Origin: a virus
Length of the DNA: 42,061 nucleotides
Direction: 5' to 3' (one strand)
Virus record (IMG/VR): IMGVR_UViG_3300027336_000124
Coordinates: 1-42,061 of that record
The notes beneath the pieces are model-generated. The model was not told the DNA's origin and did no database searches. It saw nothing but the letters and a program-made list of their open reading frames with translations. The translations under genes were made by a program, and so were the position numbers. Positions 7,221 through 41,782 of this stretch are shown piece by piece (within the stretch, counting starts at the first letter, position 1; each line of letters starts with the position of its first letter).

Positions 7221-7250
7221 TGGCCGTCGCCTTCAAACCAAGGAGAACAA

Positions 7251-7742
7251 ATGAGTCTTGCCACCCGTATCGAGAGCCTGGTCATCCGGGTCGCCCAGGA
7301 GTTCAACGACGTCCGGGCGACGGCGGGAAACCTAGCCAGCCTGTCCACCACCGACAAGTCGAGTCTGGTCGCGGCGATCAACGAACTGAAGGCGGCGGTT
7401 CTCTCCGCAACCGCCATCGACGACAACCAGATCGCCACCTCAACCACCTACTCGTCGAACAAGATCGTGTCGCTGCTCGACGCGCTCAAGGCCGACATCC
7501 TCGGTGGAGCAGACGCCGCCTACGACACCCTGGTGGAGATCCAGCAGTTGCTGCAGAACGGCACTACGGGCCTGGACGCGCTCCTCGCTGCCGTCAATCT
7601 GCGGGTGCGGTACGACGCGGCGCAAACCCTGACCGTTGCCGAGCAACTTCAGGCGCGCACCAACATTGGCGCGGTTGCGGCCGTCGATGTTGGCAACACC
7701 GACACGGACTTCGTCGTGATCTTCGACGGGGCGCTGGCCTGA
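7251..7742 (+). CDS. Fibre-like virion protein between terminase and connector
   Basis: A 163-residue protein with an N-terminal helical part (LSTTDKSSLVAAINELK) and a C-terminal segment (AEQLQARTNIGA) of the kind found in trimeric phage fibre and head-fibre proteins. It has a strong ribosome site (AAGGAG, 7 nt before ATG 7251). Its stop overlaps the next start. It lies between terminase and the gpW-like gene, where lambda has no fibre gene; a head-fibre or decoration role is plausible but inferred. Confidence 0.6.
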   Translation: MSLATRIESLVIRVAQEFNDVRATAGNLASLSTTDKSSLVAAINELKAAVLSATAIDDNQIATSTTYSSNKIVSLLDALKADILGGADAAYDTLVEIQQLLQNGTTGLDALLAAVNLRVRYDAAQTLTVAEQLQARTNIGAVAAVDVGNTDTDFVVIFDGALA

Positions 7743-8134
7743 TGAGCCTCGCGTCCAGCATCGCCGCCCTGGCTGCGCGCATCGGCTTCGAGGTCAAGAC
7801 CAAGATCGACGCCACGCACCCTGGACTTGCTCGAGTGTGGGTGAGCTTTGGCTACGTGGGCGGTCAGATCGTGATCGGCAGCGCGCACAACGTGGCCAGC
7901 GTCGTGCGTACAGCGGCGGGCCGCTACCGCGTGCATTTTGCGCTGGCGATGCCGGATGCGAACTACTGCTGGACGGCGCTCGCACGCAGCAGCAGCAACA
8001 GCGGCCAGCAGCGTGTGGCTGTCGTTCGCGCCAGTTCCGACCTGAAAACCGCCCAGTACGTCGACATCTCCTGCGCGACGACAGCAACGTCGTTCGACGA
8101 CTCCTCCGAAATCAATCTCGTGGTGTACCGCTGA
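7742..8134 (+). CDS. Fibre tip-like virion protein
   Basis: A 130-residue protein whose second half (GRYRVHFALAMPDANYC, later INLVVYR) has the signature of small beta-sandwich tip domains of phage fibres. The N-terminal MSLASSIAALAARIG resembles the start of the preceding protein, suggesting shared assembly. Start and stop overlap both neighbours (TGATG junctions). The two may form one fibre split over two genes. The longer upstream reading frame is not supported. Confidence 0.6.
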   Translation: MSLASSIAALAARIGFEVKTKIDATHPGLARVWVSFGYVGGQIVIGSAHNVASVVRTAAGRYRVHFALAMPDANYCWTALARSSSNSGQQRVAVVRASSDLKTAQYVDISCATTATSFDDSSEINLVVYR

Positions 8135-8355
8135 TGGCCTACACAGAAACCCAGCTCCAGGCCTTGGAGAGCGCGCTCGCCAAGGGCGAACGGCGGGTGA
8201 CCTTTGCCGACAAGACGGTCGAGTACCGCTCGGTCGACGAACTGATGGCCGCGATCCGTGAGGTCAGGCGTGGACTGCTGCTGCAGGCGGCTGAGACTGG
8301 GCTGCTGCCCGGTGCGCCACGCCAGATCCGCGTTACCACGCGCAAGGGGTTCTGA
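8134..8355 (+). CDS. gpW-like head-tail connector
   Basis: A 73-residue protein with the compact gpW pattern: an N-terminal helix, a beta hairpin (RRVTFADKTVEYRS) and a second helix (VDELMAAIREVRRGL). Lambda gpW (68 residues) has the same fold and the same position just before the portal gene. It stabilises the filled head and prepares the tail attachment site. ATG 8134 overlaps the upstream stop. Confidence 0.75.
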   Translation: MAYTETQLQALESALAKGERRVTFADKTVEYRSVDELMAAIREVRRGLLLQAAETGLLPGAPRQIRVTTRKGF

Positions 8356-8356
8356 A

Positions 8357-9865
8357 ATGGCGTGGTTCTCCCAAACGGTGCGCCGGTTGTTCGGTGCTTC
8401 GCCGGTACACGAAGCCGCAGGTCGTGGCCGTCGCTCGCTGGCTTGGATGCCCGGCAACCCGGGCGCGGTCGCCGCGATGCTGGCGACCAACGCCGAACTG
8501 CGCGGTAAGAGCCGGGACCTCGTTCGGCGCAATGCCTGGGCGCAGGCCGGTATCGAAGCCTTCGTAGCCAATGCGGTCGGCACCGGCATCAAGCCGCAAA
8601 GCCTGTCTGGCGACGAACGGTTCAAGGCCGAGGTGCAGGCACTGTGGCGCGATTGGGTCGAGGAAGCCGACGCGGCCGGACAGACCGACTTCTATGGCCT
8701 GCAGGCCCTGGCGTGTCGGGCGATGCTCGAAGGTGGCGAATGTCTGATCCGACTGCGGCCACGCCGTCCGGAGGATGGCCTGTCGGTGCCCCTGCAGCTC
8801 CAGTTGCTAGAGCCCGAGCACCTGCCCATCAACCTGAACACCGATCTGCCGTCCGGCAACGTCGTGCGCTCCGGCATCGAGTTCGACAACCTTGGGCGGC
8901 GCGTTGCCTACCACCTGTACCGCTCGCACCCGGAGGACGGGCGTTTGGCCCCGATGTCGGGCCAGGGCGGGATGGACACGGTGCGCATCGATGCCAAGGA
9001 GATCATTCACCTGTTCCGCGTGCTGCGCCCAGGCCAGATCCGGGGCGAGCCGTGGCTGTCGCGGGCCCTGGTCAAGCTCAACGAGCTCGACCAGTACGAC
9101 GACGCTGAGCTGGTGCGCAAGAAGACCGCCGCGATGTTCGCGGGTTTCGTCACGCGCGCCAACCCAGAGGACAACCTGATGGGCGAAGGTGCAGCGGACG
9201 CCGACGGGATTGCGCTTGCCGGACTGGAGCCGGGCACGCTGCAGATCCTGGAGCCGGGCGAGGACATCAAGTTCTCCGATCCGGCTGACGTTGGCGGTTC
9301 GTACTCCGAATTCCTGCGCACCCAGTTCCGCGCGGTTGCCGCCGCCATTGGTATCACCTACGAGCAGTTGACCGGCGATCTGACCGGCGTGAACTACTCG
9401 TCCATCCGAGCCGGGATGCTGGAGTTCCGGCGTCGTTGCGAGATGGTGCAGCACGGGGTGCTCGTGCATCAGATGTGCCGCCCGGTTTGGGCGGCCTGGA
9501 TGAAGCAGGCTGTGCTCGCCGGGGCCCTGGATGCCCCGGGCTTCGCTCGAGGCGGGCCAGCCCGTCGTCGCCAGTACCTCGCGGTGAAGTGGATTCCCCA
9601 GGGCTGGCAGTGGGTCGATCCCGAGAAGGAATTCAAGGCGATGTTGCTGGCGATCCGCGCTGGCTTGATGTCGCGCTCGGAAGCCATCTCGGCCTTCGGC
9701 TACGACGCAGAAGACGTCGACCGGGAGATCGCCGCCGATAACCAGCGCGCCGACGACCTCGGCCTGATTTTCGATTCCGACGCTCGCTACACGTCGAAGG
9801 ACGGCGGCAGCGCGGAACCCAACCGCAACGCCGCCGACGCATCCGGCAGCAATTCGACTGCCTGA
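8357..9865 (+). CDS. Portal protein, lambda gpB family
   Basis: A 502-residue portal protein (lambda gpB is 533). Recognisable family segments include ALACRAMLEGGECLIRLRP, the region ELVRKKTAAMFAGFV and GDLTGVNYSSIRAGMLEFR. The C-terminal ~40 residues are polar and low in complexity. ATG 8357 follows the gpW-like stop by one base; a longer upstream in-frame start would overlap the gpW-like gene fully and is rejected. It forms the dodecameric DNA gate at the special capsid vertex. Confidence 0.95.
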   Translation: MAWFSQTVRRLFGASPVHEAAGRGRRSLAWMPGNPGAVAAMLATNAELRGKSRDLVRRNAWAQAGIEAFVANAVGTGIKPQSLSGDERFKAEVQALWRDWVEEADAAGQTDFYGLQALACRAMLEGGECLIRLRPRRPEDGLSVPLQLQLLEPEHLPINLNTDLPSGNVVRSGIEFDNLGRRVAYHLYRSHPEDGRLAPMSGQGGMDTVRIDAKEIIHLFRVLRPGQIRGEPWLSRALVKLNELDQYDDAELVRKKTAAMFAGFVTRANPEDNLMGEGAADADGIALAGLEPGTLQILEPGEDIKFSDPADVGGSYSEFLRTQFRAVAAAIGITYEQLTGDLTGVNYSSIRAGMLEFRRRCEMVQHGVLVHQMCRPVWAAWMKQAVLAGALDAPGFARGGPARRRQYLAVKWIPQGWQWVDPEKEFKAMLLAIRAGLMSRSEAISAFGYDAEDVDREIAADNQRADDLGLIFDSDARYTSKDGGSAEPNRNAADASGSNSTA

Positions 9866-28681: not shown

Positions 28682-28987
28682 ATGACCGAACCCGAACAAC
28701 AACCAGCCGCCCTTGTGGAAAACATGCTCCTGCTGCGCCGCGAGGACTTCGACGAACTGCTCGACCGTGCCGCCGAACGCGGAGCCGAGCGTTGCCTTGC
28801 CCATCTCGGGCTGGAGAACGGCAGCGCCGCGAAGGACATCCGCGAACTGCGCGATCTGCTGGAAGCGTGGCGAGATGCCCGCCGAACGGCGTGGCAGACC
28901 ACCATCAAGGTCGTGACCACCGGCATCCTGGCCGCGCTGCTGGTGGGGGCCGCCATCAAGTTGAAGCTGATGGGAGGCGTGCAATGA
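28682..28987 (+). CDS. DUF6127-like membrane protein of the lysis region
   Basis: A 101-residue protein. The N-terminal ~70 residues are acidic and helical (LLLRREDFDELLDRAAERG), and a single C-terminal membrane segment lies around 78-95 (VVTTGILAALLVGAAI). This matches DUF6127 proteins next to phage holins. It overlaps the holin candidate by 4 nt (ATGA). It may be an antiholin-like or scaffold factor; not shown by sequence. Confidence 0.65.
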   Translation: MTEPEQQPAALVENMLLLRREDFDELLDRAAERGAERCLAHLGLENGSAAKDIRELRDLLEAWRDARRTAWQTTIKVVTTGILAALLVGAAIKLKLMGGVQ

Positions 28988-29211
28988 CTGCCAAGCCGAA
29001 GATCTGCCTTCTGGACGACTGGCGGCGCGTGTTGCGACGGGCCTGGAGCGTCCGCTTCTCGCTGCTGGCCGCTGCCTTCACGGCGGCGGAAGTCGTGGTG
29101 CCGCTGTTCGGGGACGTACTACCGCGCGGCGAGTTCGTGCTGCTGGCCTTTGCCGCCAGCATCGGCGCAACCGTAGCTCGCATCGTGGCTCAGCCGGAGA
29201 TGCACCGATGA
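28984..29211 (+). CDS. Putative holin
   Basis: A 75-residue protein with a basic N-terminus (DDWRRVLRRAW) and two hydrophobic segments (~24-42 and ~50-66), ending in a short polar tail. Size, topology and position just upstream of the endolysin gene are those of class II-type holins. It would permeabilise the inner membrane at the end of infection. Confidence 0.7.
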   Translation: MTAKPKICLLDDWRRVLRRAWSVRFSLLAAAFTAAEVVVPLFGDVLPRGEFVLLAFAASIGATVARIVAQPEMHR

Positions 29212-29717
29212 CCCGGCCACCATCACCAGCGATGCGCAGGACGGTGGCCGGACTGACGCTGTCCGCTGCCGCCCTGGTTGGCATCGTGCTGCACGAGGGC
29301 TACACCGATCGTGCAGTGATCCCCGTCAAGGGCGATGTACCGACCATTGGTTTCGGCACCACCACCGGGGTGAAGCTGGGCGACACCACCACGCCGCCAA
29401 AGGCGCTGGCTCGGGCACTTACCGACGTGCAGCAATTCGAGGGGGCGCTCAAGCAATGCGTGACCGTGCCCCTGGCCCAGCACGAGTACGACGCGCTGGT
29501 GAGCTTTTCCTACAACGTCGGCAGCCGCGCGTTCTGCCAATCCACGCTGGTCAGGAAACTCAACGCCGAGGACTACGCGGGAGCCTGTACCGAGCTGCTG
29601 CGCTGGCGCTTCTTTCAGGGAAAAGACTGCGCGCTGCCCACCAACGCGCGGCTGTGCGGCGGGCTGGCTACACGGCGAGAAGCTGAATACCGGCAGTGCA
29701 TCGGGGAGGCGTCGTGA
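29208..29717 (+). CDS. GH24 lysozyme (endolysin) with N-terminal membrane segment
   Basis: A 169-residue lysozyme. Glu30 in LHEGYTDRAVIPVKG is the likely catalytic acid, and DVPTIGFGTT is the family segment. The E...D...T spacing departs from T4/P21 lysozymes: Thr46 lies 16 residues after Glu30 and position 39 is Pro. Residues ~12-28 (TVAGLTLSAAALVGIVL) form a weakly hydrophobic Ala/Gly-rich segment typical of SAR endolysins, which need no holin pore for export. Cleaves peptidoglycan. 4-nt overlaps on both sides. Confidence 0.85.
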   Translation: MTRPPSPAMRRTVAGLTLSAAALVGIVLHEGYTDRAVIPVKGDVPTIGFGTTTGVKLGDTTTPPKALARALTDVQQFEGALKQCVTVPLAQHEYDALVSFSYNVGSRAFCQSTLVRKLNAEDYAGACTELLRWRFFQGKDCALPTNARLCGGLATRREAEYRQCIGEAS

Positions 29718-30211
29718 GCGTGATTCCGTGGCCGTACCGGCTGCTGGCACTCACGGCGATCGGCATCGCCCTGGTTGGCTTTGGCTGGATCAAGGGGGCG
29801 AGCCACGTTCAAGCGCGATGGGATGCCGCCATCCAGCAACAAGCCCTACAGACCGCAGCTATCCGCGAGCGGCAGGCGCAAGCCACCGTCAAGGTCGTGA
29901 CCCAGTACGTCGACCGCGTCCGCGTCGTTCGCGAGAAGGGCGAAACCATCATCAAGGAGGTTCCCGTCTATGTGCCCGTTCAAGCCGATGCTGCTTGCAC
30001 TATCAACCGTGGCTTTGTGCGCCTGCACGACGCTGCCGCCGCCGGTGAGCTGCCCGAGCCCGCCAGAGATGCTGATGCGGCCGCCGCAGGCATTGCGCTC
30101 TCTGCCGTCGCCGGAACCCTTGCCGCCAACTACCAGACCTGCCACGAGAATGCCGAGCAACTGAGGGCGCTGCAGGCGTGGGTCATGACAATGACCGCGA
30201 ACATCAAATAA
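29714..30211 (+). CDS. Rz-like inner-membrane spanin
   Basis: A 165-residue protein starting at GTG 29714 within the endolysin stop. It has one N-terminal membrane segment (~8-27, RLLALTAIGIALVGFGWI) followed by a periplasmic coiled-coil region. The Rz1-like gene is embedded in another frame. It should link inner and outer membranes and fuse them in the last step of lysis. Confidence 0.75.
   Translation: MSVIPWPYRLLALTAIGIALVGFGWIKGASHVQARWDAAIQQQALQTAAIRERQAQATVKVVTQYVDRVRVVREKGETIIKEVPVYVPVQADAACTINRGFVRLHDAAAAGELPEPARDADAAAAGIALSAVAGTLAANYQTCHENAEQLRALQAWVMTMTANIK
29970..30164 (+). CDS. Rz1-like outer-membrane spanin lipoprotein, embedded in Rz
   Basis: A 64-residue protein wholly inside the Rz-like gene in a different frame. 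It has a signal peptide ending in a lipobox (ALCAC; the second Cys would be lipidated) and a Pro-rich mature part (TTLPPPVSCPSPPE), the hallmark of Rz1. The ribosome site is excellent: AAGGAGG (29954-29960), 9 nt before ATG 29970. It partners Rz in lysis. Confidence 0.75.
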   Translation: MCPFKPMLLALSTVALCACTTLPPPVSCPSPPEMLMRPPQALRSLPSPEPLPPTTRPATRMPSN

Positions 30212-30583
30212 GAAGGAGCGATTGCTTTCCACTGGCCTTACTGAGGACAAAAACTGCTGACGACTTCGCATTCAACCTCGGCGTGAGGCTGATCTGGACC
30301 AGACACCGACTTGGTTGATCAATCTCAACTAACCCGTCGCAGAGACAGAACTGCCACGCGGGGTCAGTGACGGCCGGGGACAAACCGCTGTGACCTTCAG
30401 CGAGACCCGTAGCTCATGAATTTTTCCACCCCGATAGTGCCTACCACTATTCGCGTCGAACATCAACTGATATGCTGGTGGCTTCTGCTTGTATTCGGTT
30501 TGTACATGAGTGGCACCTGGTGGGTCTGCCTGCATCTAAGAACCGTTTTGGCGTTAATCAATCGAATTTTCAGACAAAACTCA
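30212..30583. other. Non-coding junction between lysis and defence cargo
   Basis: No convincing gene is seen. The upstream half has phage-like composition and the downstream half turns AT-rich, so the cargo junction lies here. A 6-bp inverted repeat, ATAGTG (30434-30439) and CACTAT (30445-30450), could be an operator for the restriction gene. An in-frame ATG at 30416 would add a Trp/Leu-rich hydrophobic N-terminus to the nuclease, judged spurious. Confidence 0.5.
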
Positions 30584-31801
30584 ATGAGCTACGGAACGGG
30601 ACGTATTGGCGAAGTCATCGCTTATTTGAAGAAGAAGCATGGCGCAGATATAAAACAGATTTCAGCAGCCAATAAGCTGCATGCGCTCTGCGAATCACTT
30701 CAAATGAAACAAAATACATTTGATCGGATGATCAGTGAAAATTCACCCGTCTTTCGCACTGTTAAGGGTCATGCCTTTGAGAGTTTTTTCGATTCTCTAC
30801 TTGATGCTAATGGAATAAAGGTAACCGAGGTTGGTGGGGACGATGCGGTCGACCGTATTGTCAATTCGAAATCACTACAGCTCAAAACCTGTACAGAGGC
30901 TGGGACCAAAGGCACAATCGTTCAGTATAAGACGCACAAGACTCACGGGGCAAAATCTGAGCAGGAGTCAATGGACTACTACCATAGGGCCGATCACTTC
31001 GCAGAGTATTTGATCGGACTGGTTTCATATGACCCCCTCAACGTAGTCGTTATTGAAAACAGAGAACTCCCTAGGCACCCTCTATCCAAGGAGCATATAC
31101 TTTCGCCGTTCTCCATTGATTGGAGTCGTCACCCAAGCTTGAATGCATTTTCACGCATTGGGGTGACCTTGAAAAATGTTGGTGCAACAAAGCCGGTTCC
31201 TGGTCAAGAAGTGTTGCCTCTTACTTCAAAGAAGCTAGGCATTTCTTCTGATGTCATCCTCAACACCATTCTGAATGATGCCAATTTTCGGATTTGGGAT
31301 ATGTCAATTAGAGGATTTTCTCGTGAAGTAGTATTTCAAGAGATGGTTGCGGCAAATGGAATCAAAATGTATAAACCCTCGGATTTGCGTTCGAGTCGCG
31401 CAGACAAGGCTGATCACGCCGTAAAAATAGCCGGATCCAATAAGTTCATTCAGATGAAAGGAATTTCAACCAATAACTGTGAGCTTAACAAAAGAGATCC
31501 AGTAATTGCGACGGAAACCCAGCTAACAAGGGGGCGCGTCAACGACCACCCAACACAAAGCCGTCTCTACCTGAGGTCTGACTTTGACTATTTGGTTCTC
31601 GGCATGGATCCTCCCGTCGTAGATATGTGCCGTAAAGCATCAGGAACTGGGGCGGGGCTTGAGTGGGAGTTTTATCTAATTCCTACGCAAAATCTTGAGG
31701 GGCATCACGAAATGCCCCACAGGCTAAAGTCTCTCCAGAAGTTTTCATACTCTTCTATTCAAAAATACAAAATTACGGACTGGACGAGGTCGCTAACCTG
31801 A
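30584..31801 (+). CDS. Putative restriction endonuclease with two PD-(D/E)XK-like domains
   Basis: A 405-residue protein convergent with two adenine methyltransferase genes (5-nt gap), the typical layout of a type II system. Two halves share a pattern: a short helical region, then GHAFESFF...ANGIK...VDRIV...LQLK (Glu66, Asp90, Gln99, Lys101) and SREVVFQE...ANGIK...DHAV...IQMK (Glu248, Asp277, Gln290, Lys292). This E-D-QXK order is that of PD-(D/E)XK nucleases, with Gln for Asp/Glu. Both halves continue with similar (D/E)Y(L)..DP segments. The start at ATG 30584 has a weak ribosome site. Base composition is markedly AT-richer than the phage. The function is inferred. Confidence 0.65.
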   Translation: MSYGTGRIGEVIAYLKKKHGADIKQISAANKLHALCESLQMKQNTFDRMISENSPVFRTVKGHAFESFFDSLLDANGIKVTEVGGDDAVDRIVNSKSLQLKTCTEAGTKGTIVQYKTHKTHGAKSEQESMDYYHRADHFAEYLIGLVSYDPLNVVVIENRELPRHPLSKEHILSPFSIDWSRHPSLNAFSRIGVTLKNVGATKPVPGQEVLPLTSKKLGISSDVILNTILNDANFRIWDMSIRGFSREVVFQEMVAANGIKMYKPSDLRSSRADKADHAVKIAGSNKFIQMKGISTNNCELNKRDPVIATETQLTRGRVNDHPTQSRLYLRSDFDYLVLGMDPPVVDMCRKASGTGAGLEWEFYLIPTQNLEGHHEMPHRLKSLQKFSYSSIQKYKITDWTRSLT

Positions 31802-31805
31802 TGAG

Positions 31806-32702
31806 CTAGAGCAAGTCAAGCTGTTCTAAGTGCTCAACGCGGTAGTTTGTAATGAATAGCTCTTTCCCCACCTTTCTGGGGCCAGAGCTATTTGCCGTGT
31901 TGTAGAACCAAGTTTGCTCATAAATGTGTGCCCACGAATAGAGCTCTCTAATCTGAGGGCAATCATCATAAGACAGCAAAAATGCGTGATCCAAAGAGCG
32001 CAGCATTTCTTCAAGACGCAAATGATCTTGAAGTTTGAAGGACTTAGTGTAGGCGCGTTTTTGATCCGCCAAAAAATAAGGCGGATCCAGGTACATCAGA
32101 ACCCGTTTACCTTGAGCTGGTGCGGTTAGCACTTCGGAAAAGTCTAAATTCGATAGATGTACTTCGCTAAGTTTTTTGTTCGCGCCACGAATGAATCTAT
32201 GCCAGTTCTCCGGTGGGGAACTTGCTCCCAACGCATATCCCCACGCGGGCTTGTGAATTATTCCGGAGTAAGAGGTTCTATTTAAATAGTACGTCTTGAA
32301 GGCGACGTCATCCTCATTTAATGGTGAGTATGTTTTGATCTCAGCATGCCTTTCTTTGCTCGCTATTTCACCTGACACTCGAGTTATCAGCAGTTCGCTT
32401 CTTTCTTTCGACTGCATTGCCCTGTAGGTTTCGATCACATCACCTTCAAGATCGTTAAGCCAGTTAAAGCGAGCTTTGGGCTTGCCAAAAAATACGCTCC
32501 CACCGCCAACAAATGGCTCTCGGTACTCATCGTGCGGGTAGGCGTTCAAAAAAGGGATGATGTACTTTAGGGCGTAGAATTTTCCGCCCGGATATCTGAA
32601 TGGAGACTGCGTATGGTCTGCACCTTTTTGGTATACGCTGCTGGCTTTGTATACCCCATCAAAAATTCTAGGTTTAGATGTGCTCAAGACCTGGCACCTC
32701 AT
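31806..32702 (-). CDS. D12-class DNA N6-adenine methyltransferase (Dam-like) 2
   Basis: A 298-residue methyltransferase with FRYPGGK (35-41) and PFVGGGSVFF for SAM binding, and catalytic DPPYF (DPPY at 206-209). It ends with LFITNY. This is the D12/Dam type. Its start overlaps the end of the upstream methyltransferase by 29 nt; the first ~30 residues lack family similarity. It pairs with the next gene and is likely to protect one strand or site of the convergent endonuclease's target. Confidence 0.9.
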   Translation of the reverse strand: MRCQVLSTSKPRIFDGVYKASSVYQKGADHTQSPFRYPGGKFYALKYIIPFLNAYPHDEYREPFVGGGSVFFGKPKARFNWLNDLEGDVIETYRAMQSKERSELLITRVSGEIASKERHAEIKTYSPLNEDDVAFKTYYLNRTSYSGIIHKPAWGYALGASSPPENWHRFIRGANKKLSEVHLSNLDFSEVLTAPAQGKRVLMYLDPPYFLADQKRAYTKSFKLQDHLRLEEMLRSLDHAFLLSYDDCPQIRELYSWAHIYEQTWFYNTANSSGPRKVGKELFITNYRVEHLEQLDLL

Positions 32703-33492
32703 AATTTGTGATCACTAGTTCAAATCCCTGTTTTCTTGCGCCATTTTGAGTGGCCGAATTTTCAACTCGATAGAAGAATTTCAAGGGGTATATATATGCC
32801 CAATCATATATTCTCCTAATCTCCTCGGCGTCATCGTATGTTAAGAAGAATTTGTGCTTCGTGGATCTCAATGCGCTTGCAAGACGGACATGGTCCTCAT
32901 GATCCAGTCCATGCCGATAGTGTTTTCTTTTTGGGGGAAGAAAATATGGGGGATCCACATACATCAGCACTTGGGCTTTCGACCCCTCTTCAATAACCTC
33001 CTGAAAATCCAGAGAGGAGAGATTAACTCCCTCCAATTTTTCGCCGCATGGAATGATTCGCTCATGCCATCGCTCCGGCGGCAGGCTGCGTTTTGGCCTA
33101 TACCCCCAGGCCGGAGATATTAATTTTCCACTGAATGAGGTTCTATTTAGATAGAAGTACTTGAACGCAATATCTAAATCGGACTGCGGAGCAAACTCCA
33201 AAACCTCTCGCCATCGATCCGGGTTGGCCACTTCATTCTCAAATCTTTGAATAAGTGCGGCTCGATCATGAGCATTGGCTACGCACCTATAAGTGGTGAT
33301 CAACTCAGAGTCAATGTCATTCAGCCAAGTGTATTGAGCTGGAGATTTGTTAAAGAAAACTGTGGCCCCTCCGGCAAAAGGCTCTCTGTATTCTGAGTGC
33401 GGAACTGCTTCCCAAAAGGGCTGCAAAATATCCATTGCGTAATGCTTCCCGCCCGGGTATCGAAACAAAAGGGGGGCTCGCTTTGCTGCCAT
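32674..33492 (-). CDS. D12-class DNA N6-adenine methyltransferase (Dam-like) 1
   Basis: A 272-residue Dam-like enzyme with FRYPGGK (10-16), PFAGGATVFF and DPPYF (DPPY at 180-183), ending with LVITNYEV. It is clearly paralogous to the overlapping downstream gene (shared YLNRTS(F/Y)SG and PAWGY), consistent with duplication. It starts 2 nt after the stop of a small RHH-like gene. Two methylases of one type beside one endonuclease suggest an asymmetric target, as in many type IIS systems. Confidence 0.92.
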   Translation of the reverse strand: MAAKRAPLLFRYPGGKHYAMDILQPFWEAVPHSEYREPFAGGATVFFNKSPAQYTWLNDIDSELITTYRCVANAHDRAALIQRFENEVANPDRWREVLEFAPQSDLDIAFKYFYLNRTSFSGKLISPAWGYRPKRSLPPERWHERIIPCGEKLEGVNLSSLDFQEVIEEGSKAQVLMYVDPPYFLPPKRKHYRHGLDHEDHVRLASALRSTKHKFFLTYDDAEEIRRIYDWAYIYPLKFFYRVENSATQNGARKQGFELVITNYEVPGLEHI

Positions 33493-33494
33493 TT

Positions 33495-33701
33495 TTATTC
33501 CTTGTTGCTGATGCTTTTGTTTTCGTCTGTAGAGTCATCTATTGGCAGTGGCATTTGCCCGGCATGTGCGATGAAGCCCTCGGCTTGGGAGACAAACCAT
33601 TCTTTCAAGGTCAACCCTTTTGCCGTCAAATTCGAGTACAAGCCGCGCTTAAGATCTGGATCAATCTCAATCACAATTCGCCCGCTGGAACCTATGCTCA
33701 T
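33495..33701 (-). CDS. Small ribbon-helix-helix-like protein, possible controller
   Basis: A 68-residue protein with a beta strand (GRIVIEI) followed by two helices (DPDLKRGLYSNLTAKG and LTLKEWFVSQAEGFI), the plan of RHH/CopG-type DNA-binding proteins. ATG 33701 is chosen over an upstream start because GAGGTGG precedes it and because the region beyond is AT-rich promoter DNA. It heads the operon with the two methyltransferases, a position held by C-proteins in other restriction systems. Regulation is inferred. Confidence 0.65.
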   Translation of the reverse strand: MSIGSSGRIVIEIDPDLKRGLYSNLTAKGLTLKEWFVSQAEGFIAHAGQMPLPIDDSTDENKSISNKE

Positions 33702-33810
33702 GCCCGCCACCTCGTGACAATGTGATGTAATGTATGTAATATAACATCCTTCTCCCTCAGCAGCCAAGCCCGGATCGCGGGTCGGGAGACGTTTCTGGCA
33801 AGGATTAATC
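33702..33810. promoter_or_regulatory. Divergent promoter/operator region with ATGTAAT repeats
   Basis: It separates the leftward RHH-methylase operon from the rightward McrBC operon. Around 33722-33747 it has two ATGTAAT copies and the near-palindrome GATGTAA...TAACATC, with TATATT on the minus strand as a -10 candidate. These are the only repeats in the gap and are candidate RHH operators. A binding protein here could coordinate both restriction systems. Confidence 0.5.
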
Positions 33811-35601
33811 ATGGCCCGCTATTCAGAGCAAGACACGAGCAAGATCTACCAGGCTGCTGATGCCTTCCGGGTCGACTGCCTCCTACGTGACGGATCACTG
33901 CTGTTCGCCGACGCGTCTGTCTGGCGTCCTGATTTACTGGATCGCATTCACAAAGCCTTCGTCGCCACCCCGGACGAAGGCGACCGGACGTTCATCGACA
34001 AGTTCAAAGACCAAGTCGGAAAGGCCGGACAGGACGTATCACGTCTTGCGGCAGAGATCTTGAGCGTGTACTTCCTGTTCCCATCCAGTGTCGGTGGCGT
34101 GCGCAAGCGGCAGGTCGTGAACGAGGTTCTCAGCTGGGGCGGCGACACCCTGCCGGAGTCCCACCTTGTATCCGCCGCTTTCTCTAACGGGATCGGCAGT
34201 GGCGGTCAGGGCTACAACACCCGCCGCCCTTTCGAGATCGCCTTTCTGATCGAACTCGCCATCGCATGGAAGAAGTTGCCAAACGATCGGCAGGTAGAGG
34301 TGGCGGCCGATCCGTGGCTCTTTCAAGAGGTCGTGGACAGCATTGAGGATGCAGAGTCGAAGCAGCTCCGGCACATGCTTCTTCATCTCCTGTTCCCCGA
34401 GCACTTCGAGCGCATAGCAAGTGGCAATCACAAGCGCAGAGTCATCAAGGCTTTCTCGGGACTGGTCACTGCCGAATCAGAGGATGATGACCGGGCGATC
34501 TTGGCCATTCGCCAGGAGCTAGAAAAGCTGCTTCCCAACCAGGAGCTGGACTTTTACTGGTCGCCGCTTGTCGAGGCTTGGTACGACGACAGCGAGGGCG
34601 CATCTGAAGGCGCGCCGCTGGAGATCATCCAGCACAAGAAGCAGATCGTCCTCTATGGACCGCCGGGTACTGGAAAGACTTTCCGCGCCAAGAAGCTGGC
34701 TGAGCGTGTCATCCGATCTGCGGCACTGAGCCAAATGGGCCCGGCTCGCTACTTCCAGTCGCAATCTGCTATCGAATCCGCGATCCGCGACAACGTGCAT
34801 CGACTGCAGCTGCACCCGGCCTACAGCTACGAGGACTTCATTCGCGCACTCCACATTTCGAATGGCGGTGGCACGGAATATCGATCTGGCTACCTTCCAA
34901 AGCTGATTGAGGACATCGAGCAGAAGCCACGCGCTGAACGTCTGCCGCACATCCTGATCCTGGATGAAATGAATCGGACGGACCTGAGTCGGATGCTCGG
35001 CGAGTGCTTTTCCTTGCTTGAGGATCGCAATCAGACGATTGAGCTTCCGGCACGCAATGGAGACGGGGCGGCAATGAAGCTGCGCATCCCCGACGATCTG
35101 TACGTGATCGGCACCATGAACCTGATCGACCAGTCCATCGAGCAGATCGACTTCGCGCTGCGCCGACGTTTCTTGTGGCTACTTTGCCCGTTTGACGCCG
35201 AGGCTCTAGTGGGGGCCGCGGAATCCAAGTGGCAGGATCTGAAATCGGGCCTGGAGTGGGGTCGCATCGAACCGGATTTCCGCAAATTGGCTGCAGCAGC
35301 GGCGGCGTTGAACAGGCAGATCCACGACAGCCCGCTGCTTGGCTCACAGTACGAGATCGGGCACACCTACCTGCTAGATGTGGTCGTGTTTCTGCGCAAT
35401 TTCCTCGGTGCTCGACCTACACGCAAGCAGAACTACCTTTGGAACAAGAGGGGTGAAGCGCTGGAGCCCGTCGTGCAGGTGTGGAATCTGTCCCTTCGCC
35501 CGTTGCTCGAGCAGTATCTCGCTGGACTGGACGCGACCGCGCGCAACACTGAGCTCGACCGGCTATCCAAGGTTCTGCTCAAGCCGTCGGTGGCCGAGTG
35601 A
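33811..35601 (+). CDS. McrB-like AAA+ GTPase of a modification-dependent restriction system
   Basis: A 596-residue protein. The N-terminal ~260 residues form a variable recognition/adapter part (including HMLLHLLFPEHFERI). The AAA+ motor has Walker A GPPGTGKT (283-290), Walker B LILDEMNRTDL (Asp385) and the McrB-type signature MNLIDQS (starting at 436), where Escherichia coli McrB has MNTADR-like residues. GTC-type specificity is inferred from this motif. It overlaps the McrC start (GTGA). It should translocate and deliver the McrC nuclease onto modified DNA. Confidence 0.88.
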   Translation: MARYSEQDTSKIYQAADAFRVDCLLRDGSLLFADASVWRPDLLDRIHKAFVATPDEGDRTFIDKFKDQVGKAGQDVSRLAAEILSVYFLFPSSVGGVRKRQVVNEVLSWGGDTLPESHLVSAAFSNGIGSGGQGYNTRRPFEIAFLIELAIAWKKLPNDRQVEVAADPWLFQEVVDSIEDAESKQLRHMLLHLLFPEHFERIASGNHKRRVIKAFSGLVTAESEDDDRAILAIRQELEKLLPNQELDFYWSPLVEAWYDDSEGASEGAPLEIIQHKKQIVLYGPPGTGKTFRAKKLAERVIRSAALSQMGPARYFQSQSAIESAIRDNVHRLQLHPAYSYEDFIRALHISNGGGTEYRSGYLPKLIEDIEQKPRAERLPHILILDEMNRTDLSRMLGECFSLLEDRNQTIELPARNGDGAAMKLRIPDDLYVIGTMNLIDQSIEQIDFALRRRFLWLLCPFDAEALVGAAESKWQDLKSGLEWGRIEPDFRKLAAAAAALNRQIHDSPLLGSQYEIGHTYLLDVVVFLRNFLGARPTRKQNYLWNKRGEALEPVVQVWNLSLRPLLEQYLAGLDATARNTELDRLSKVLLKPSVAE

Positions 35602-36926
35602 AACTAGTCGCGCGTGACTGCTCACCGCTCGTCCCGCAACCGACAGCGGCAGAGGTTAACTGGCTCCGGAAGCTCGTAACAAATGTCCGAGCATCGGATT
35701 TTGTAGTTCCCATCTCGGGCGAGAGGGACGAGGACGAGCCCATCGTCTACTGTGCATGGGACGGCACTTGGTGGGCTGGCCGGTACGTCGGCTCGATTTC
35801 CTTCGAGGGGCACAGCCTGACCATTGAGCCACGTTTTGGCCTGAACGTGCTTCGGAATTGGCTTTTTGAAGCAACGTCGGTCGTGCTGACCGACGCGCCC
35901 GGAGAACTCCGGGAGGACGAATCGTTCATTGCCCAACTTCTTGCGTCCGTCTGGGCCCATGGCTTCGTCGAGGCGGCTCGGCATGGGCTGCCTGCGCTTC
36001 GCCGAGAAGTGGCGACGAAAGGCGCGACGGTTAGGGGGCGGCTTGATGTCCCCGCATCACTGCGCTTGATCGCATCAGGTGGGGGACAGGTAGTGTCTAT
36101 CCGTTCGGAGCGGTCGTTGGATCACGCAGCATCCGATGCCATCGTCGCCGCCTACGAGGTTCTGCGACGGTGGCTTGGGGTGCCGGACGAAAAATGGCTG
36201 CCCACACGTGCGAAGGAACTACTCCCCCATTTGATGGCTGTTACCGGCGCGAGACCACGTGTCCCAACGAAGGCCGAACTGGACCGCATTCGCTACACGC
36301 CGATCACAGCAGGGTTTGCGCCTATCGCTGAGTTGTCTAGGCAGATTGCAAACCGAAGGGGGTTGGCTGCTGATATTGATGCCAGTGGCGAAACAAAGGG
36401 TGTGCTGCTCGACGTTGCGGAGCTGTGGGAGATGTACGTCCTCAGCATTTTGCGCAAGGCTGCAGCACCACTGACCGTGACTCACGGTACCCGAGATAAG
36501 GCTGCGACCAAGAAGATGCTCCACAGCGATGTCACCGGGCAAGGTTTGGGTACGCTTATTCCTGATGCAATTTTGTCTTCAAGCGCAGAGGTCCTGGGCG
36601 TTGCAGATGCGAAGTACAAATCGCTGCACCCATCTGCCAGTGCGCCGAACGGACCCCAGCGTGAGGATCTTTATCAAATGGCCGCTTACCTTGGTCGATT
36701 CCGCCACTCGACCAGAGACGATGTCTGTGGCTTCTTGGTGTACCCGCACGATCCAAGTAAGCCGACCGAGACAACGGCAGAGTCATCCAGTCCTTGGAGT
36801 CTGGATGGGCACAAGAAGATCGTTTTCACTACTTTGCCTCATGAGGCATCCGACGCGGTGATCAAGCTACGCACTACCCTCAGCATGATGGTTTCTGACC
36901 GGGGTGCCTGGCTTGTTCGTGCGTAA
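35598..36926 (+). CDS. McrC-like nuclease subunit
   Basis: A 442-residue protein starting at GTG 35598, overlapping McrB by 4 nt. The N-terminal half is the McrC-type region (YVGSISFEGHSLTIEPRFG). The nuclease core is PD (322-323) followed by DAKYK (Asp337, Lys339), the conserved McrC PD-(D/E)XK. It should cut DNA when bound to the McrB ring. The ADP-ribosylglycohydrolase gene starts 17 nt downstream. Confidence 0.9.
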   Translation: MKLVARDCSPLVPQPTAAEVNWLRKLVTNVRASDFVVPISGERDEDEPIVYCAWDGTWWAGRYVGSISFEGHSLTIEPRFGLNVLRNWLFEATSVVLTDAPGELREDESFIAQLLASVWAHGFVEAARHGLPALRREVATKGATVRGRLDVPASLRLIASGGGQVVSIRSERSLDHAASDAIVAAYEVLRRWLGVPDEKWLPTRAKELLPHLMAVTGARPRVPTKAELDRIRYTPITAGFAPIAELSRQIANRRGLAADIDASGETKGVLLDVAELWEMYVLSILRKAAAPLTVTHGTRDKAATKKMLHSDVTGQGLGTLIPDAILSSSAEVLGVADAKYKSLHPSASAPNGPQREDLYQMAAYLGRFRHSTRDDVCGFLVYPHDPSKPTETTAESSSPWSLDGHKKIVFTTLPHEASDAVIKLRTTLSMMVSDRGAWLVRA

Positions 36927-36943
36927 TCGGGAGTAGATGACTT

Positions 36944-38833
36944 ATGCCCAACCTTTTTAATCTTCACCTGAAAGCGGACGTCCTGGAACGGTACCAGCTC
37001 CCCGATATTGCTTATCCGATCAGAAAGAGTGACTTGGCGGTCTGTCTAGAGGGATCGGGGTCTTTACCAGTAGCTACGCTGCTTCATGGTTTGCAGCAGC
37101 GTAGCCGGGACGGCGCAGCCGAATGGCAGCAGGCCGAACCCGCAATGGATCGGCTTGCCGAGCTATTGGCACCCGACGATGCCCGCGACGTCATCTCCGC
37201 TGCCGGCGACCACTGGTGGCTCGAGGTCGGGCCCGTGGACCTTGCCGGCAAACTGGTCACCATCCAACGTGGTGATTTTCTGATCGCTGCCATCACCGCC
37301 CGGGACGATGGACGCTTGCGGGTGGCTGTGTTTCGCCCATTGGACGCCAAGAGCGCGGAGTACCTGATCGGGCTGGGGCAAGTGCCTCACCCTGAGCACG
37401 GCGTCTGTATGCGCGAGAACAACTGGGAGTACGCGCTCGACTGCTCTGCCGGAAACGGCAACTACTACGCTGCCGACCGGGGCGAAGCCTACCTGTCCTA
37501 CTGGGAGAAAGGCCTGGGCATCAGTTGGGTCGGTTCCGATGTGCCCGAGTGGCGCAAGCAGCTGGACCTCGTTGCCCGGCCCGCCCCCCGCGTAGTCGCA
37601 GAGCTGGGCATCTACTACACCTTGTCCAGCAATGAGGAGGAGGAGCCCGTTGCCGATGCGGGCGCGGCGGAAGAATTCGAGACACCGGCACCACCGGCCT
37701 GGCGCGGCAAGCGCCAGCAAAAACGCACGGTCCAGGGGCGATTTCTGGGCTGCCTGCTAGGTGGTGCAGTCGGAGATGCGCTGGGCGCACCGGTCGAGTT
37801 CATGAAGCGGGCAGAGATCCTCCGTCGCTTCGGCCCCAAGGGCATCACCCAGTACGCACCGGCTTATGGCGGCATGGGGACGATCACCGACGATACGCAG
37901 ATGACCTTGTTCACCGCTGAGGGGTTGATCCGAGGCTGGGTGCGCGGCTGTTTCAAAGGCATCACAACCTATTCCGGTGTTACGGCCCACGCCTACTTGC
38001 GCTGGCTGCAAACCCAAGGCGAACGTCCGACCTGCGACATCGACTTCGGCACCGATGAGCCTGGCTGGCTGTTTCAGCAGCGCCAGCTGCACAGCCGTCG
38101 CGCACCGGGCAACACCTGCCTCGCTGCCCTGCGGGCGATGAATTCCCTCGGGGAGTCGGCCCGCAACGACAGCAAAGGCTGCGGCGGCGTCATGCGGGTT
38201 GCGCCGGTCGGTCTGTTCGCCTGGCGCCTGCGTCAGCACGAATCTCCCCAAGACGCCTTCCGGCTGGGTACCGAGTTGGCTGCGCTGACCCATGGCCATC
38301 CGACCGGCGCTCTGACCGGTGGTGTGCTGGCAGTGCTAATCCTGGCGCTGACCGATGGCGCTTCGCTGCCCGAGGCGCTGGCCGCCGCCAAAAGCCTCCT
38401 GCGAGCCGAGCCCGGCCACGATGAGACGCTGCGGGCAATAGAGATGGCCGAGGAGATGGCCGAGGAGTTGGCCGATTCCGGCCTGCCCCATGAAGAAGCC
38501 ATTGCCCGGCTGGGCCAGGGTTGGATCGCCGAGGAGGCCCTGGCGATCTCCATCTATTGCGCGCTGGTCGCCCGCAATTTCAAGGATGGGGTGATTCTGG
38601 CGGTGAACCACGATGGCGACTCCGACTCGACCGGCGCGATCGTTGGCAACCTGCTGGGCGCAATGCACGGCGTGAAGGCGATCCCTGCCGAGTGGCTGGG
38701 GCCCCTGGAGCTGCGCGACGTAATCACCGAATTGGCGGAAGACCTCTACGCGTTCAAGGATTGGGCGATAGGCGAGTACAGCGACAACGAAGAGCTGAAC
38801 CAGCGGATCTGGCGGAAGTACCCGGGGTTCTGA
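36944..38833 (+). CDS. ADP-ribosylglycohydrolase with unknown N-terminal domain
   Basis: A 629-residue protein. Residues ~265-600 are an ADP-ribosylglycohydrolase: GCLLGGAVGDALGAP (from 269), TDDTQM (Asp316, Asp317, Thr318), KGCGGVMR and DGDSDSTG (Asp557, Asp559, Asp561), the metal-binding set. Residues 1-230 (WWLEVGPVDLAGKLVTI, CMRENNWEYAL) are not recognised, and an acidic/Pro-rich linker (~232-262) joins them. It follows McrC closely (GGGAG about 12 nt ahead of ATG), suggesting co-transcription. It could reverse ADP-ribosylation or hydrolyse a signal; this is inference. Confidence 0.82.
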   Translation: MPNLFNLHLKADVLERYQLPDIAYPIRKSDLAVCLEGSGSLPVATLLHGLQQRSRDGAAEWQQAEPAMDRLAELLAPDDARDVISAAGDHWWLEVGPVDLAGKLVTIQRGDFLIAAITARDDGRLRVAVFRPLDAKSAEYLIGLGQVPHPEHGVCMRENNWEYALDCSAGNGNYYAADRGEAYLSYWEKGLGISWVGSDVPEWRKQLDLVARPAPRVVAELGIYYTLSSNEEEEPVADAGAAEEFETPAPPAWRGKRQQKRTVQGRFLGCLLGGAVGDALGAPVEFMKRAEILRRFGPKGITQYAPAYGGMGTITDDTQMTLFTAEGLIRGWVRGCFKGITTYSGVTAHAYLRWLQTQGERPTCDIDFGTDEPGWLFQQRQLHSRRAPGNTCLAALRAMNSLGESARNDSKGCGGVMRVAPVGLFAWRLRQHESPQDAFRLGTELAALTHGHPTGALTGGVLAVLILALTDGASLPEALAAAKSLLRAEPGHDETLRAIEMAEEMAEELADSGLPHEEAIARLGQGWIAEEALAISIYCALVARNFKDGVILAVNHDGDSDSTGAIVGNLLGAMHGVKAIPAEWLGPLELRDVITELAEDLYAFKDWAIGEYSDNEELNQRIWRKYPGF

Positions 38834-38896
38834 GGGGGTAGTTGCCCAAATTGCCGAATCCACGCCCTCAAGGCCAAGGCGTTACCATCTGGCTCG

Positions 38897-38934
38897 GATT
38901 GCGGACGCGGGTTCGGTTCCGTGTTCCGCCACCA
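38897..38934 (+). other. Probable attachment site: tmRNA (ssrA) 3'-end-like remnant
   Basis: CGGACGCGGGTTC followed by GGTTCC and CCACCA at 38929-38934 closely resembles the T-arm and acceptor end of bacterial tmRNA (CGGACGCGGGTTC...CTCCACCA). The T-stem is poorly paired, so a functional RNA is unlikely. ssrA is a common integration target. It lies 63 nt after the last cargo gene and probably marks the right end of the element. The matching left site is outside the window. Confidence 0.5.
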
Positions 38935-38959
38935 ATTTGATGCTTGCTGGTTGTTGCCA

Positions 38960-39172: not shown

Positions 39173-39622
39173 TCAAGCGGCGATCTCGGAATGAACGATG
39201 TGCGCGATCTCGTATTTACGGACATCCTCGAGCCGATAAAGCACTTTGCCGCCGATCTTGAGATAGTCTGGCCCCTTCCGATCGGCTCGCCATCGCTGTA
39301 GGCGTGAGGTGGAGCAGTGCCACCGCAGCGCAAGCATCTGCTCGGTGAGAAGCTCGGGCATTGCAGTCGACGATGATAAGTCGGCTGGCGCAATCGCTCG
39401 CCCACTTCGCGCCTTTTGTATGCCGAGCAATGCATCTGACGCGGCCAGCTTTCCGCGAAGATGAGCGAGCTGCTTTAGGTCGCCCGGTGTGATTGGCATA
39501 CTGACGCAAATCGATCCGTTCGGGCCGTCCTTCAATGTGCTGCTTTGCGCTCGGGATTCAATGGATCGGATCACTTGCTCAGTCGCGAGCCTATCGGCCA
39601 AGAGTGCCTTTCGGGTTTTCAT
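39173..39622 (-). CDS. HTH (excisionase/MerR-like) protein
   Basis: A 149-residue protein. The C-terminal ~50 residues (LLTEQMLALRWHCSTSRLQ, YLKIGGKVLYRLEDVRKYE) have the HTH_17/excisionase-type winged-helix pattern; the N-terminal ~95 are helical and unrecognised. ATG 39622 has a perfect AAGGAGG ribosome site, overlapped by a 7-bp inverted repeat. The position just outside the probable attachment site suggests a remnant or a neighbouring element. Confidence 0.65.
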   Translation of the reverse strand: MKTRKALLADRLATEQVIRSIESRAQSSTLKDGPNGSICVSMPITPGDLKQLAHLRGKLAASDALLGIQKARSGRAIAPADLSSSTAMPELLTEQMLALRWHCSTSRLQRWRADRKGPDYLKIGGKVLYRLEDVRKYEIAHIVHSEIAA

Positions 39623-39623
39623 A

Positions 39624-39645
39624 AGAACCTCCTTTTAAAGGTTCT
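39624..39645 (-). promoter_or_regulatory. Inverted repeat over the ribosome site of the HTH gene
   Basis: On the minus strand, AGAACCT, an 8-nt loop and AGGTTCT form a perfect 7-bp stem immediately before ATG 39622. The Shine-Dalgarno sequence AAGGAGG (39634-39628) lies in the loop and stem, so folding or protein binding here could control translation or transcription of the HTH gene. Confidence 0.45.
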
Positions 39646-39721
39646 ATTGCACCCTCTGACAGATCAAGCGTCCCGCCTGCTCCAAATCAGGTGTCTGGCC
39701 CAGCAATTGCAAAATCAGTGC

Positions 39722-41782
39722 ATGAATCCCCGTTTTGTTCCTAGTCGCTTCTTGTTGTCACTGATTTGGTGCGCAACTCCTGTTTTCGGTCACGAACTCG
39801 CACCAATAGTGGTCACGGGGCATTACGACAACTCGATCGGTACCAGTGATGCTGCCAGCGAAGGTGTGATCGGGCCAGAGTTGCTACGTAATCGAGCGAT
39901 CTTGCGCCCTGCCGATGTTCTGGAGTACATCCCAGGCATGGTGGTCACCCAGCATTCAGGTGACGGCAAAGCCAATCAATACTTTTTGCGTGGCATGAAC
40001 CTCGACCACGGCACCGACTTCGCAACGATTGTCAACGGCGTGCCGGTGAATATGCCGACACATGCGCACGGGCATGGCTACAGCGATTTGAATTTTCTGA
40101 TTCCTGAACTGGTGCAACGGGTTGAGTACCGCAAGGGGCCTTACTTCGCGTCCGAAGGAGATTTTTCATCCGCTGGCTCAGCCAACTTCGTTTATCGAAC
40201 CAAGTTAGACCGTCCTTTTGCTGATGTGACGATTGGACAGCGTGGATATTTGAGGGGTGTAGCTGGTGTTTCCCGGGAGGTGAGTGAGGGCGTGACCTTG
40301 CTGACAGCCGTCGAACGTCTGAATAACAACGGGCCGTGGAGTGTTCCCGAGGGGATTCGTAAAACCAATGCTCAATTCATACTCAGCGGAGGCAGCCCAC
40401 GCGAGGGCTGGTCAACTAGCCTGTCGGCTTATTCAGCACGCTGGAATTCGACAGATCAGATTCCGCAACGTCTGATTGATGCAGGAAGTTATCAGGGGCA
40501 ACCGTTCGGTCGATTCGATTCACTGGATCCATCGGATGGCGGAAATACAAACCGCACCAGTTTGTCGGGCAACTGGCATCAATCCACAGATCATGAGCTG
40601 ACAAAGATCGAGTGGTATGCCATCAAGTATGACCTGAATTTGTTCTCCAACTTCACCTACAGCTTGGACAGAACCAATGACCAGTTCGCCCAGACCGATG
40701 ACAGATCAGTGTGGGGTGGCAAAGCCTACAGGTCCTGGTTCACCGATTTGAGCGATGGACGGAGCATGCAAAACACCTTAGGGGTGCAGATGCGACAAGA
40801 CCGAATTCGCGTTGGACTCTATGACACCGTGGCCAGACAAATTCAGTCAACCGTTCGGGATGATGATGTTCACCAGACCCTAGTTGGCATTTATGGCGAA
40901 AACGAAATGGGCTGGAGCTCATGGCTACGAACGGTGACAGGCTTGAGGGTTGACCAATTCAGCGCCAAAGTCACCAGCCATTCACAGCCACAGAATTCTG
41001 GAAACGCAGCAGCGTCCAAGGTTTCGCCCAAGTTTTCCGTCATCTTCGGACCATGGCAGAAAACAGAGTTTTTCATCAATGCGGGCAATGGTTTTCACAG
41101 CAATGACGCACGCGGTACCACTGCCAAGGTGGACCCCAAGACGGGATTGCCGATTGATTCTGTTCCTGGTCTCGTCAGCTCGCGTGGACAAGAGATAGGG
41201 GTGAAATCGCAGATCGTTCCCGACCTACAAACGACCTTGGCCATCTGGCGGCTCGATTTCGATTCAGAACTGGTTTATGTTGGAGATGCAGGCAACACCG
41301 AAGCGGGACGTCCCAGCCGTCGAACCGGTGTGGAGTGGAGCAACCATTGGACACCGGGTGAGCATTTTTTGATGGATGCTAATTTTGCGTGGACCCAACC
41401 AAGGTATTCGAACAATGACCCCGCAGGTAATTACATCGCCAACGCTGTCCAGAAAGTTGCCAATTTCACATTCGCGTTGCGTAATTTGGGGCCGTGGTCT
41501 GGCTCGTTGGGCATTCGCTACATCGGAGCGGCTCCTTTGATTGAGGACAATTCCGTTCGATCAAACGCCAGTGTTGCCGCCAATCTCCGTGTGAACCGAA
41601 AAGTTTCAAACGATCTGGATGTCGCGCTAGACATCTTGAACCTGACCGATCGCAAGAACAACGACATCAGCTACTACTACACCTCGCGAGTCGCTGGTGA
41701 ACCGCTTGGGGGTGTAGACGGAGTGCACGTTCATCCGGCAGAGCCCCGGACTATCAGGCTCACAGCAAGAATGAGGTTTTGA
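39722..41782 (+). CDS. TonB-dependent outer-membrane receptor
   Basis: A 686-residue receptor. Signal peptide at ~1-24 (FLLSLIWCATPVFG), then a TonB-box-like APIVVTG near 27-33, a plug domain (~45-150, including RNRAILRPADVLEYIPGM) and a 22-strand-type barrel ending in Phe. The plug contains the His-rich MPTHAHGHGYSD. ATG 39722 is chosen because the signal peptide starts there; the upstream in-frame ATG at 39545 overlaps the HTH gene. The substrate is unknown; the His cluster hints at a metal or metal complex. Composition fits chromosomal DNA outside the phage. Confidence 0.88.
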   Translation: MNPRFVPSRFLLSLIWCATPVFGHELAPIVVTGHYDNSIGTSDAASEGVIGPELLRNRAILRPADVLEYIPGMVVTQHSGDGKANQYFLRGMNLDHGTDFATIVNGVPVNMPTHAHGHGYSDLNFLIPELVQRVEYRKGPYFASEGDFSSAGSANFVYRTKLDRPFADVTIGQRGYLRGVAGVSREVSEGVTLLTAVERLNNNGPWSVPEGIRKTNAQFILSGGSPREGWSTSLSAYSARWNSTDQIPQRLIDAGSYQGQPFGRFDSLDPSDGGNTNRTSLSGNWHQSTDHELTKIEWYAIKYDLNLFSNFTYSLDRTNDQFAQTDDRSVWGGKAYRSWFTDLSDGRSMQNTLGVQMRQDRIRVGLYDTVARQIQSTVRDDDVHQTLVGIYGENEMGWSSWLRTVTGLRVDQFSAKVTSHSQPQNSGNAAASKVSPKFSVIFGPWQKTEFFINAGNGFHSNDARGTTAKVDPKTGLPIDSVPGLVSSRGQEIGVKSQIVPDLQTTLAIWRLDFDSELVYVGDAGNTEAGRPSRRTGVEWSNHWTPGEHFLMDANFAWTQPRYSNNDPAGNYIANAVQKVANFTFALRNLGPWSGSLGIRYIGAAPLIEDNSVRSNASVAANLRVNRKVSNDLDVALDILNLTDRKNNDISYYYTSRVAGEPLGGVDGVHVHPAEPRTIRLTARMRF

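Follow-up and report, generated by a model that had tools for sequence, protein, structure and literature searches.

An ADP-ribosylglycohydrolase gene behind mcrBC at the cargo end of a prophage: a recombinant pairing and a recurrent defence-island family

The DNA considered here is the whole 42,061-nucleotide (nt) stretch of IMG/VR virus record IMGVR_UViG_3300027336_000124, hereafter the window. It is best explained as a prophage with a cargo slot on its right, bounded by the lysis genes (to 30211) on one side and by an attachment-site-like (att-like) end (38840-38935) on the other. Three genes follow one another closely on the plus strand of that slot: a McrB-type AAA+ ATPase, a McrC nuclease subunit, and an ADP-ribosylglycohydrolase (ARH) with a fused N-terminal domain (36944-38833, 629 amino acids [aa]), the final cargo gene. 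An earlier note had read them as a single operon and had given coordinates, a shared orientation, and a McrC-ARH spacing of 17 nt, all of which hold. We describe the three proteins, the distribution of each part in other genomes, and the conclusion that the arrangement is a recombinant at the cargo slot and not a system.

McrBC and the two domains of ARH

McrB (33811-35601, 596 aa) carries its AAA_5 domain at residues 279-454, with the Walker A motif GPPGTGKT, and matches both AAA_5 (2.9e-15) and the McrB model NF008457 (2.2e-25, under the equivalog cut-off). McrC (35598-36926, 442 aa; PF10117, 3.3e-26) begins at a GTG that lies in a 4-nt overlap with the stop of mcrB. With an AAA motor, a McrC-family partner, and overlapping genes, the pair conforms to McrBC type IV restriction; it differs in its McrB N-terminus, where a Pfam scan of residues 1-270 found no domain and no recognised modified-base reader, and in its position in a prophage cargo slot beside restriction-modification (RM) genes. 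Between 36600 and 37100 we found no promoter-like site and just one weak terminator-like hairpin, within the 3′ end of mcrC. Transcription of the ARH gene by read-through from mcrBC is plausible, and the three genes may form an operon.

The catalytic ARH domain (37743-38769) matches PF03747 at 3.7e-78 over residues 269-583, scoring 263.5 bits against a curated cut-off of 26.2. Its metal-binding set, which the earlier note had called intact, is complete (T315-D316-D317 and D559-D561-S562, together with T449-H450), and all eight residues are invariant in the 20 of 20 aligned relatives that cover these positions. An AlphaFold2 model of residues 257-608 has the all-helical ARH fold, superposing on MJ1187 (1t5j; Z 37.3, root mean square deviation 2.1, 293 residues aligned) and closely on Tri1 (6dre, Z 36.7) and on the Listeria immunity partner of an ADP-ribosyltransferase (ART; 8za7, Z 34.8). 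The window protein thus shares its fold (Z 34-37) and its TDD, TH, and GDSDS residues with the ARH/DraG superfamily (PF03747; DraG 2woc, ARH1 6g28, ARH3 2foz, MJ1187 1t5j), from whose members it differs by an identity of 24-31% and by an additional N-terminal part of 255 residues. It falls short of the cut-offs for both DraG (TIGR02662, 90.2 bits against an equivalog cut-off of 337) and Tri1 (NF041672, 2.7e-21, 75.8 bits against 490). Synonymous changes far exceed replacements when codons 46-629 are compared with close relatives (ratio of nonsynonymous to synonymous rates, dN/dS, 0.06-0.17), so that, judged by its codons, the gene is under purifying selection.

The N-terminal domain (residues 1-230, 36944-37633) is as unfamiliar as had been supposed. 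Residues 1-255 were scanned against Pfam in 15 members of the family, and no model matched under E 0.1; the TY-Chap models of Pfam did not match the domain, and a search with PF22552 (TY-Chap3) found no match in any genome. Fold prediction, which the earlier note had called for, gave a model (AlphaFold2 predicted local distance difference test 76, predicted template modelling score 0.77) with no counterpart in the PDB, the best Foldseek hit having an E of 0.23. A lone match (residues 102-188, Z 2.4) to a small bacterial kinase-complex subunit was discarded as not meaningful. The domain also occurs by itself, without ARH, in a planctomycete (L072, 203-2098), in Akkermansiaceae (L057, 9537-10684), and on a Roseomonas plasmid (L112, 5977-6723); here and below, L numbers designate the loci compared.

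Linkage and the cargo slot

Relatives of ARH were drawn from 84,980 species genomes. Those of McrC came from viral contigs, from a survey of about 1,000 genomes limited to three orders, namely those to which Dechloromonas, Arenimonas, and Pseudomonas indica belong, and, in one case, from the genome of L012; several relatives stem from metagenome bins and may carry a wrong species label. In this material McrBC and ARH are found together in the window and nowhere else, which is the very outcome that the earlier note had set against its own proposal when it asked for a search of linkage across genomes. Specifically, i) neither McrB nor McrC is present at any of the 27 loci that have both the N-terminal domain and the ARH domain; ii) of these loci, all with a full-length ARH relative, 17 extend 2 kb or more upstream of the gene, and McrBC is absent from every one of the 17; iii) ARH is absent, within the flanks covered, from all eight loci with a related McrB-McrC pair (McrC 72-85% identical), of which L083 has a short flank but shows the att-like end immediately after McrC; and iv) scans of the viral contigs with ARH, with an alignment of the N-terminal domain, and with the exact 5′ 29-mer found no ARH relative, while a McrB scan returned the same five contigs as the McrC scan. 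Linkage in more than one lineage, the mark of a conserved system, was not seen, and we reject a conserved McrBC-ARH unit.

What the two halves do share is a place to sit. The att-like end of the window is a conserved stretch of 96 nt with a tRNA-3′-like finish (...GGTTCGGTTCC...CCACCA), presumably an attachment site. It lies directly after McrC in L079, L080, and L083 (79-90% identical), and directly after ARH in L021 and L024 (84-93% identical), both of which are without McrBC. L079 belongs to a phage closely related to that of the window (96.5% identity at positions 28795-30210, and 91% in McrBC), and its McrC is followed by about 40 nt and then by a 96-nt stretch matching 38840-38935 at 89.6%; L080 and L083 are alike. 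Past the tRNA-3′-like sequence the loci diverge, as would be expected of the attachment end of an element. ARAGORN and Rfam find no real tRNA or tmRNA here. Because McrC runs into this end in three loci and ARH runs into it in two others, McrBC and ARH are alternative cargo at one and the same end, and the window combines the two.

The ARH gene itself bears the trace of recombination. Codons 1-45 (36944-37079) have only 35-66% nucleotide identity to any full-length relative, whereas the remainder reaches 84-93% with the ten closest, and homology begins in nearly all of them at the break near 37080; the 5′ end is thus mosaic and of separate source. We conclude that ordinary recombination in the cargo slot of the prophage produced McrBC-ARH, and that the placement of ARH behind McrC is accidental in origin. 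The suggestion that ARH serves the modification-dependent system as a third effector is accordingly not supported, since the linkage was found at no other locus and the gene stands at a recombination junction in the prophage end.

Other cargo precedes mcrB. A candidate Mrr-like restriction endonuclease (30416-31801, plus strand; PF04471, E 0.0066, under the cut-off) is followed on the minus strand by two tandem D12-class N6-adenine methyltransferases (31806-33492; 9.7e-25 and 2.7e-21) and by a small RelB/DinJ-like protein divergent from mcrB (33495-33812, minus strand; E 0.0024, under the cut-off), a relative of which also lies upstream of McrB in L079. The cargo slot (window 30212-38900) varies between lysis genes and McrBC: the Mrr-like gene and two D12 methyltransferases of the window are replaced by other open reading frames in L107 (the contig of L079; 1563-8150) and L109 (the contig of L080; 4108-9791), some of them methyltransferase-like by eye only. 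Elsewhere in the window, two tandem genes (281-2970) each combine a ParB-like nuclease part with a DNA methyltransferase part (phrog_498), and past the att-like end are an AlpA-like helix-turn-helix gene (39173-39622, minus strand) and a TonB-dependent receptor-like gene (39545-41782, plus strand), which probably belong to the host or to another element.

The ARH family in defence islands

Compared domain by domain, full-length ARH proteins from several genera of proteobacteria share 82-95% identity, and the gene therefore moves horizontally. It is a recurrent defence-island gene. A WYL regulator is divergent from ARH in 12 of the 17 loci with at least 2 kb upstream; none was detected near ARH in the window, L006, or L017. 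In six loci (L003, L004, L009, L010, L011, and L016, at about 5400-9850) WYL, PsyrT, and PsyrA open a large mobile defence island, the far part of which is swapped between BREX-3 (BrxF and BrxC; L010 and L011) and type I RM (the other four, L009 with type I methyltransferases). In L011 PsyrT is assigned at 4e-282 and PsyrA at 8e-144 (PADLOC), BrxC at 0, and BrxF at 2e-48. Further combinations are WYL with BREX-3 (L012, L021), WYL with type I RM (L036), another WYL with GmrSD (L025), and BREX-1 PglZ and BrxL directly upstream of ARH (L020).

A second kind of neighbourhood has an HD_4 hydrolase gene ahead of ARH (L013, L014, L027, and L067), overlapping it in L013 and L014. The gene set around ARH (L014, 7-2118 and 4010-4525; L013, 5062-5811; L027; L067) consists of a 513-aa protein, the HD_4 hydrolase, whose gene runs into that of ARH, and a 249-aa protein after ARH; neither the 513-aa nor the 249-aa protein has a Pfam match above cut-off. 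In a viral contig (L081, 10005-10553) McrC is followed, after about 680 nt, by an HD_4 hydrolase 79% identical to that of L014, so that the slot behind McrC takes in partners of ARH systems as well. L049 (8806-13062) is an ADP-ribose-linked cluster in which a broken N-domain gene stands next to genes for an NrtR-type Nudix regulator, for YbjN, and for an ARH encoded separately, with a SIR2 sirtuin on the other side.

Proposed function and rival explanations

Phage ADP-ribosyltransferases, for example T4 Alt/ModA and AcrIF11, disable host proteins. Host systems centred on an ADP-ribosylglycohydrolase (ARG-centred systems) have been predicted, in section 3.8 of Iyer, Burroughs, Anantharaman, and Aravind 2022 (PMC9503650), to remove phage-placed ADP-ribose from host proteins, with WYL or Nudix regulators, HD phosphatases, and YbjN-type chaperones as partners; in that section more than 42% of the systems have a WYL/Nudix regulator and about 55% a phosphatase partner (R-P, calcineurin-like, HD, or HAD), and ADP-ribose freed by ARH is proposed to induce the regulators. 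Removal of such a tag has a biochemical precedent in AcrIF11-modified Csy1, from which a human macrodomain took ADP-ribose in vitro, in lysate (PMC12421852). The ARH family fits these predicted systems. Like them, the window couples neither an ART nor a sirtuin to its ARH domain (none lies among its neighbours from 30416 to 38833, all of them scanned), L049 with its SIR2 being the exception; the relatives have a WYL (12 of 17) or an NrtR-type Nudix regulator (L049), an alarmone-type HD hydrolase (the four HD_4 loci), and, in L049 only, YbjN, whereas the window has neither regulator nor phosphatase. The family differs in its fused N-domain, which lies outside Pfam models, and in keeping company with PsyrTA, BREX, type I RM, and GmrSD; BREX is not named in the text of that paper. 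PsyrTA, also described as the RqlHI toxin-antitoxin (PMC4670107), is divergent, together with WYL, from ARH at six loci and is absent from the window. ARH is mentioned neither in the RqlHI paper nor in two BREX/WYL papers, and a search of open-access papers found none joining an ADP-ribosylglycohydrolase with DprA, RecQ, and BREX. The catalytic domain is already known, as is the system idea, the latter as a prediction; a fused N-domain and repeated coupling to PsyrTA, BREX, and RM islands were not found described in the open-access literature.

We therefore propose the following account, which taken as a whole we regard as somewhat probable: an accidental pairing with McrBC at a prophage end of what would be a de-ADP-ribosylating hydrolase of the ARG-centred type. 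The ARH gene would have come from other mobile defence islands, recombining between McrC and the att-like end, with codons 1-45 from a third source, and is now probably read through from mcrBC. During attack a phage ADP-ribosyltransferase would tag a host or defence protein; the N-domain probably recognises and binds the tagged target, and the ARH domain would cleave the tag and restore the protein, under control, in the usual setting, of the WYL regulator that is missing in the window. The earlier suggestion that ARH reverses a phage-made modification accordingly survives in part: it agrees with the defence-island context and with published prediction (PMC9503650), the activity itself being a prediction. 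A bolder version, doubtful but worth stating, has the N-domain serve as a recognition module of a new type, through which an ADP-ribose eraser would reach defence complexes (BREX, type I RM, PsyrTA, GmrSD, McrBC), the enzyme then being a portable repair subunit that keeps its companion system working against anti-defence phage ADP-ribosyltransferases.

We wish to stress several points that weigh against this account. The function of every family member is predicted from sequence and context; the window copy has neither the regulator nor the phosphatase partner of the predicted system; the sirtuin adjoining L049 would permit a self-contained modification cycle there; the gene seems often dispensable, as frameshifts or deletions affect a number of relatives (L018, L019, L024, L036, L067, L071); and the neighbourhoods are not all independent, since many ARH relatives are at least 90% identical copies of one spreading island.

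Immunity to toxins of rival bacteria would be a different use of the same chemistry: an orphan protein acting, like Tri1, against ADP-ribosyltransferase toxins, with the N-domain blocking the toxin directly. Tri1, the immunity protein of the ART toxin Tre1, shares with ARH both its fold and an N-terminal extension ahead of the ARH domain; the fold is near that of the Listeria partner too, the Tri1 model matches weakly, and horizontal spread would suit such a gene. We nevertheless think this unlikely, because the Tri1 score is far below its cut-off, no ART toxin lies among the scanned neighbours in the window, L011, L014, L020, or L025, and the context is anti-phage rather than one of secretion. 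ARH might instead metabolise a signal, making or destroying an ADP-ribose-type ligand to which the divergent WYL (or Nudix) regulator responds, and in this way tuning the neighbouring defence operon, an idea to which the frequent WYL-ARH divergence, the Nudix regulator beside the N-domain in L049, and the published induction proposal (PMC9503650) all lend themselves. These WYL proteins have no known ligand, however, and this cannot be the sole role, because the window, L006, and L017 have ARH and no WYL detected nearby; we hold it to be quite unlikely.

Two readings are confined to the window. A true three-gene defence unit, with ARH as third effector or regulator of modification-dependent restriction, would account for the 17-nt spacing, the common strand, and the absence of a promoter-like site between the genes, and ARH is associated with defence elsewhere; with no ARH at the eight other McrBC loci of the family, no McrBC at the 17 other ARH loci, and a mosaic gene at the element end, we consider it very improbable. 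Hardly more credible, if anything less so, is a decaying passenger, swept in by recombination and functionless in this prophage: the mosaic 5′ end and the frequency of broken relatives would suit it, but the frame and catalytic residues are intact and the gene is under the purifying selection described above.

A class of ADP-ribose erasers by which bacteria may reverse phage ADP-ribosylation has so far been predicted on paper. The ARH family provides a concrete, mobile, and testable member of that class, with an intact catalytic site, an unexplained domain of targeting type, and physical coupling to defence systems with known assays (BREX, PsyrTA, and type I RM). The window, for its part, shows how false defence operons originate: two unrelated cargo genes that meet at a prophage end can pass for a system.

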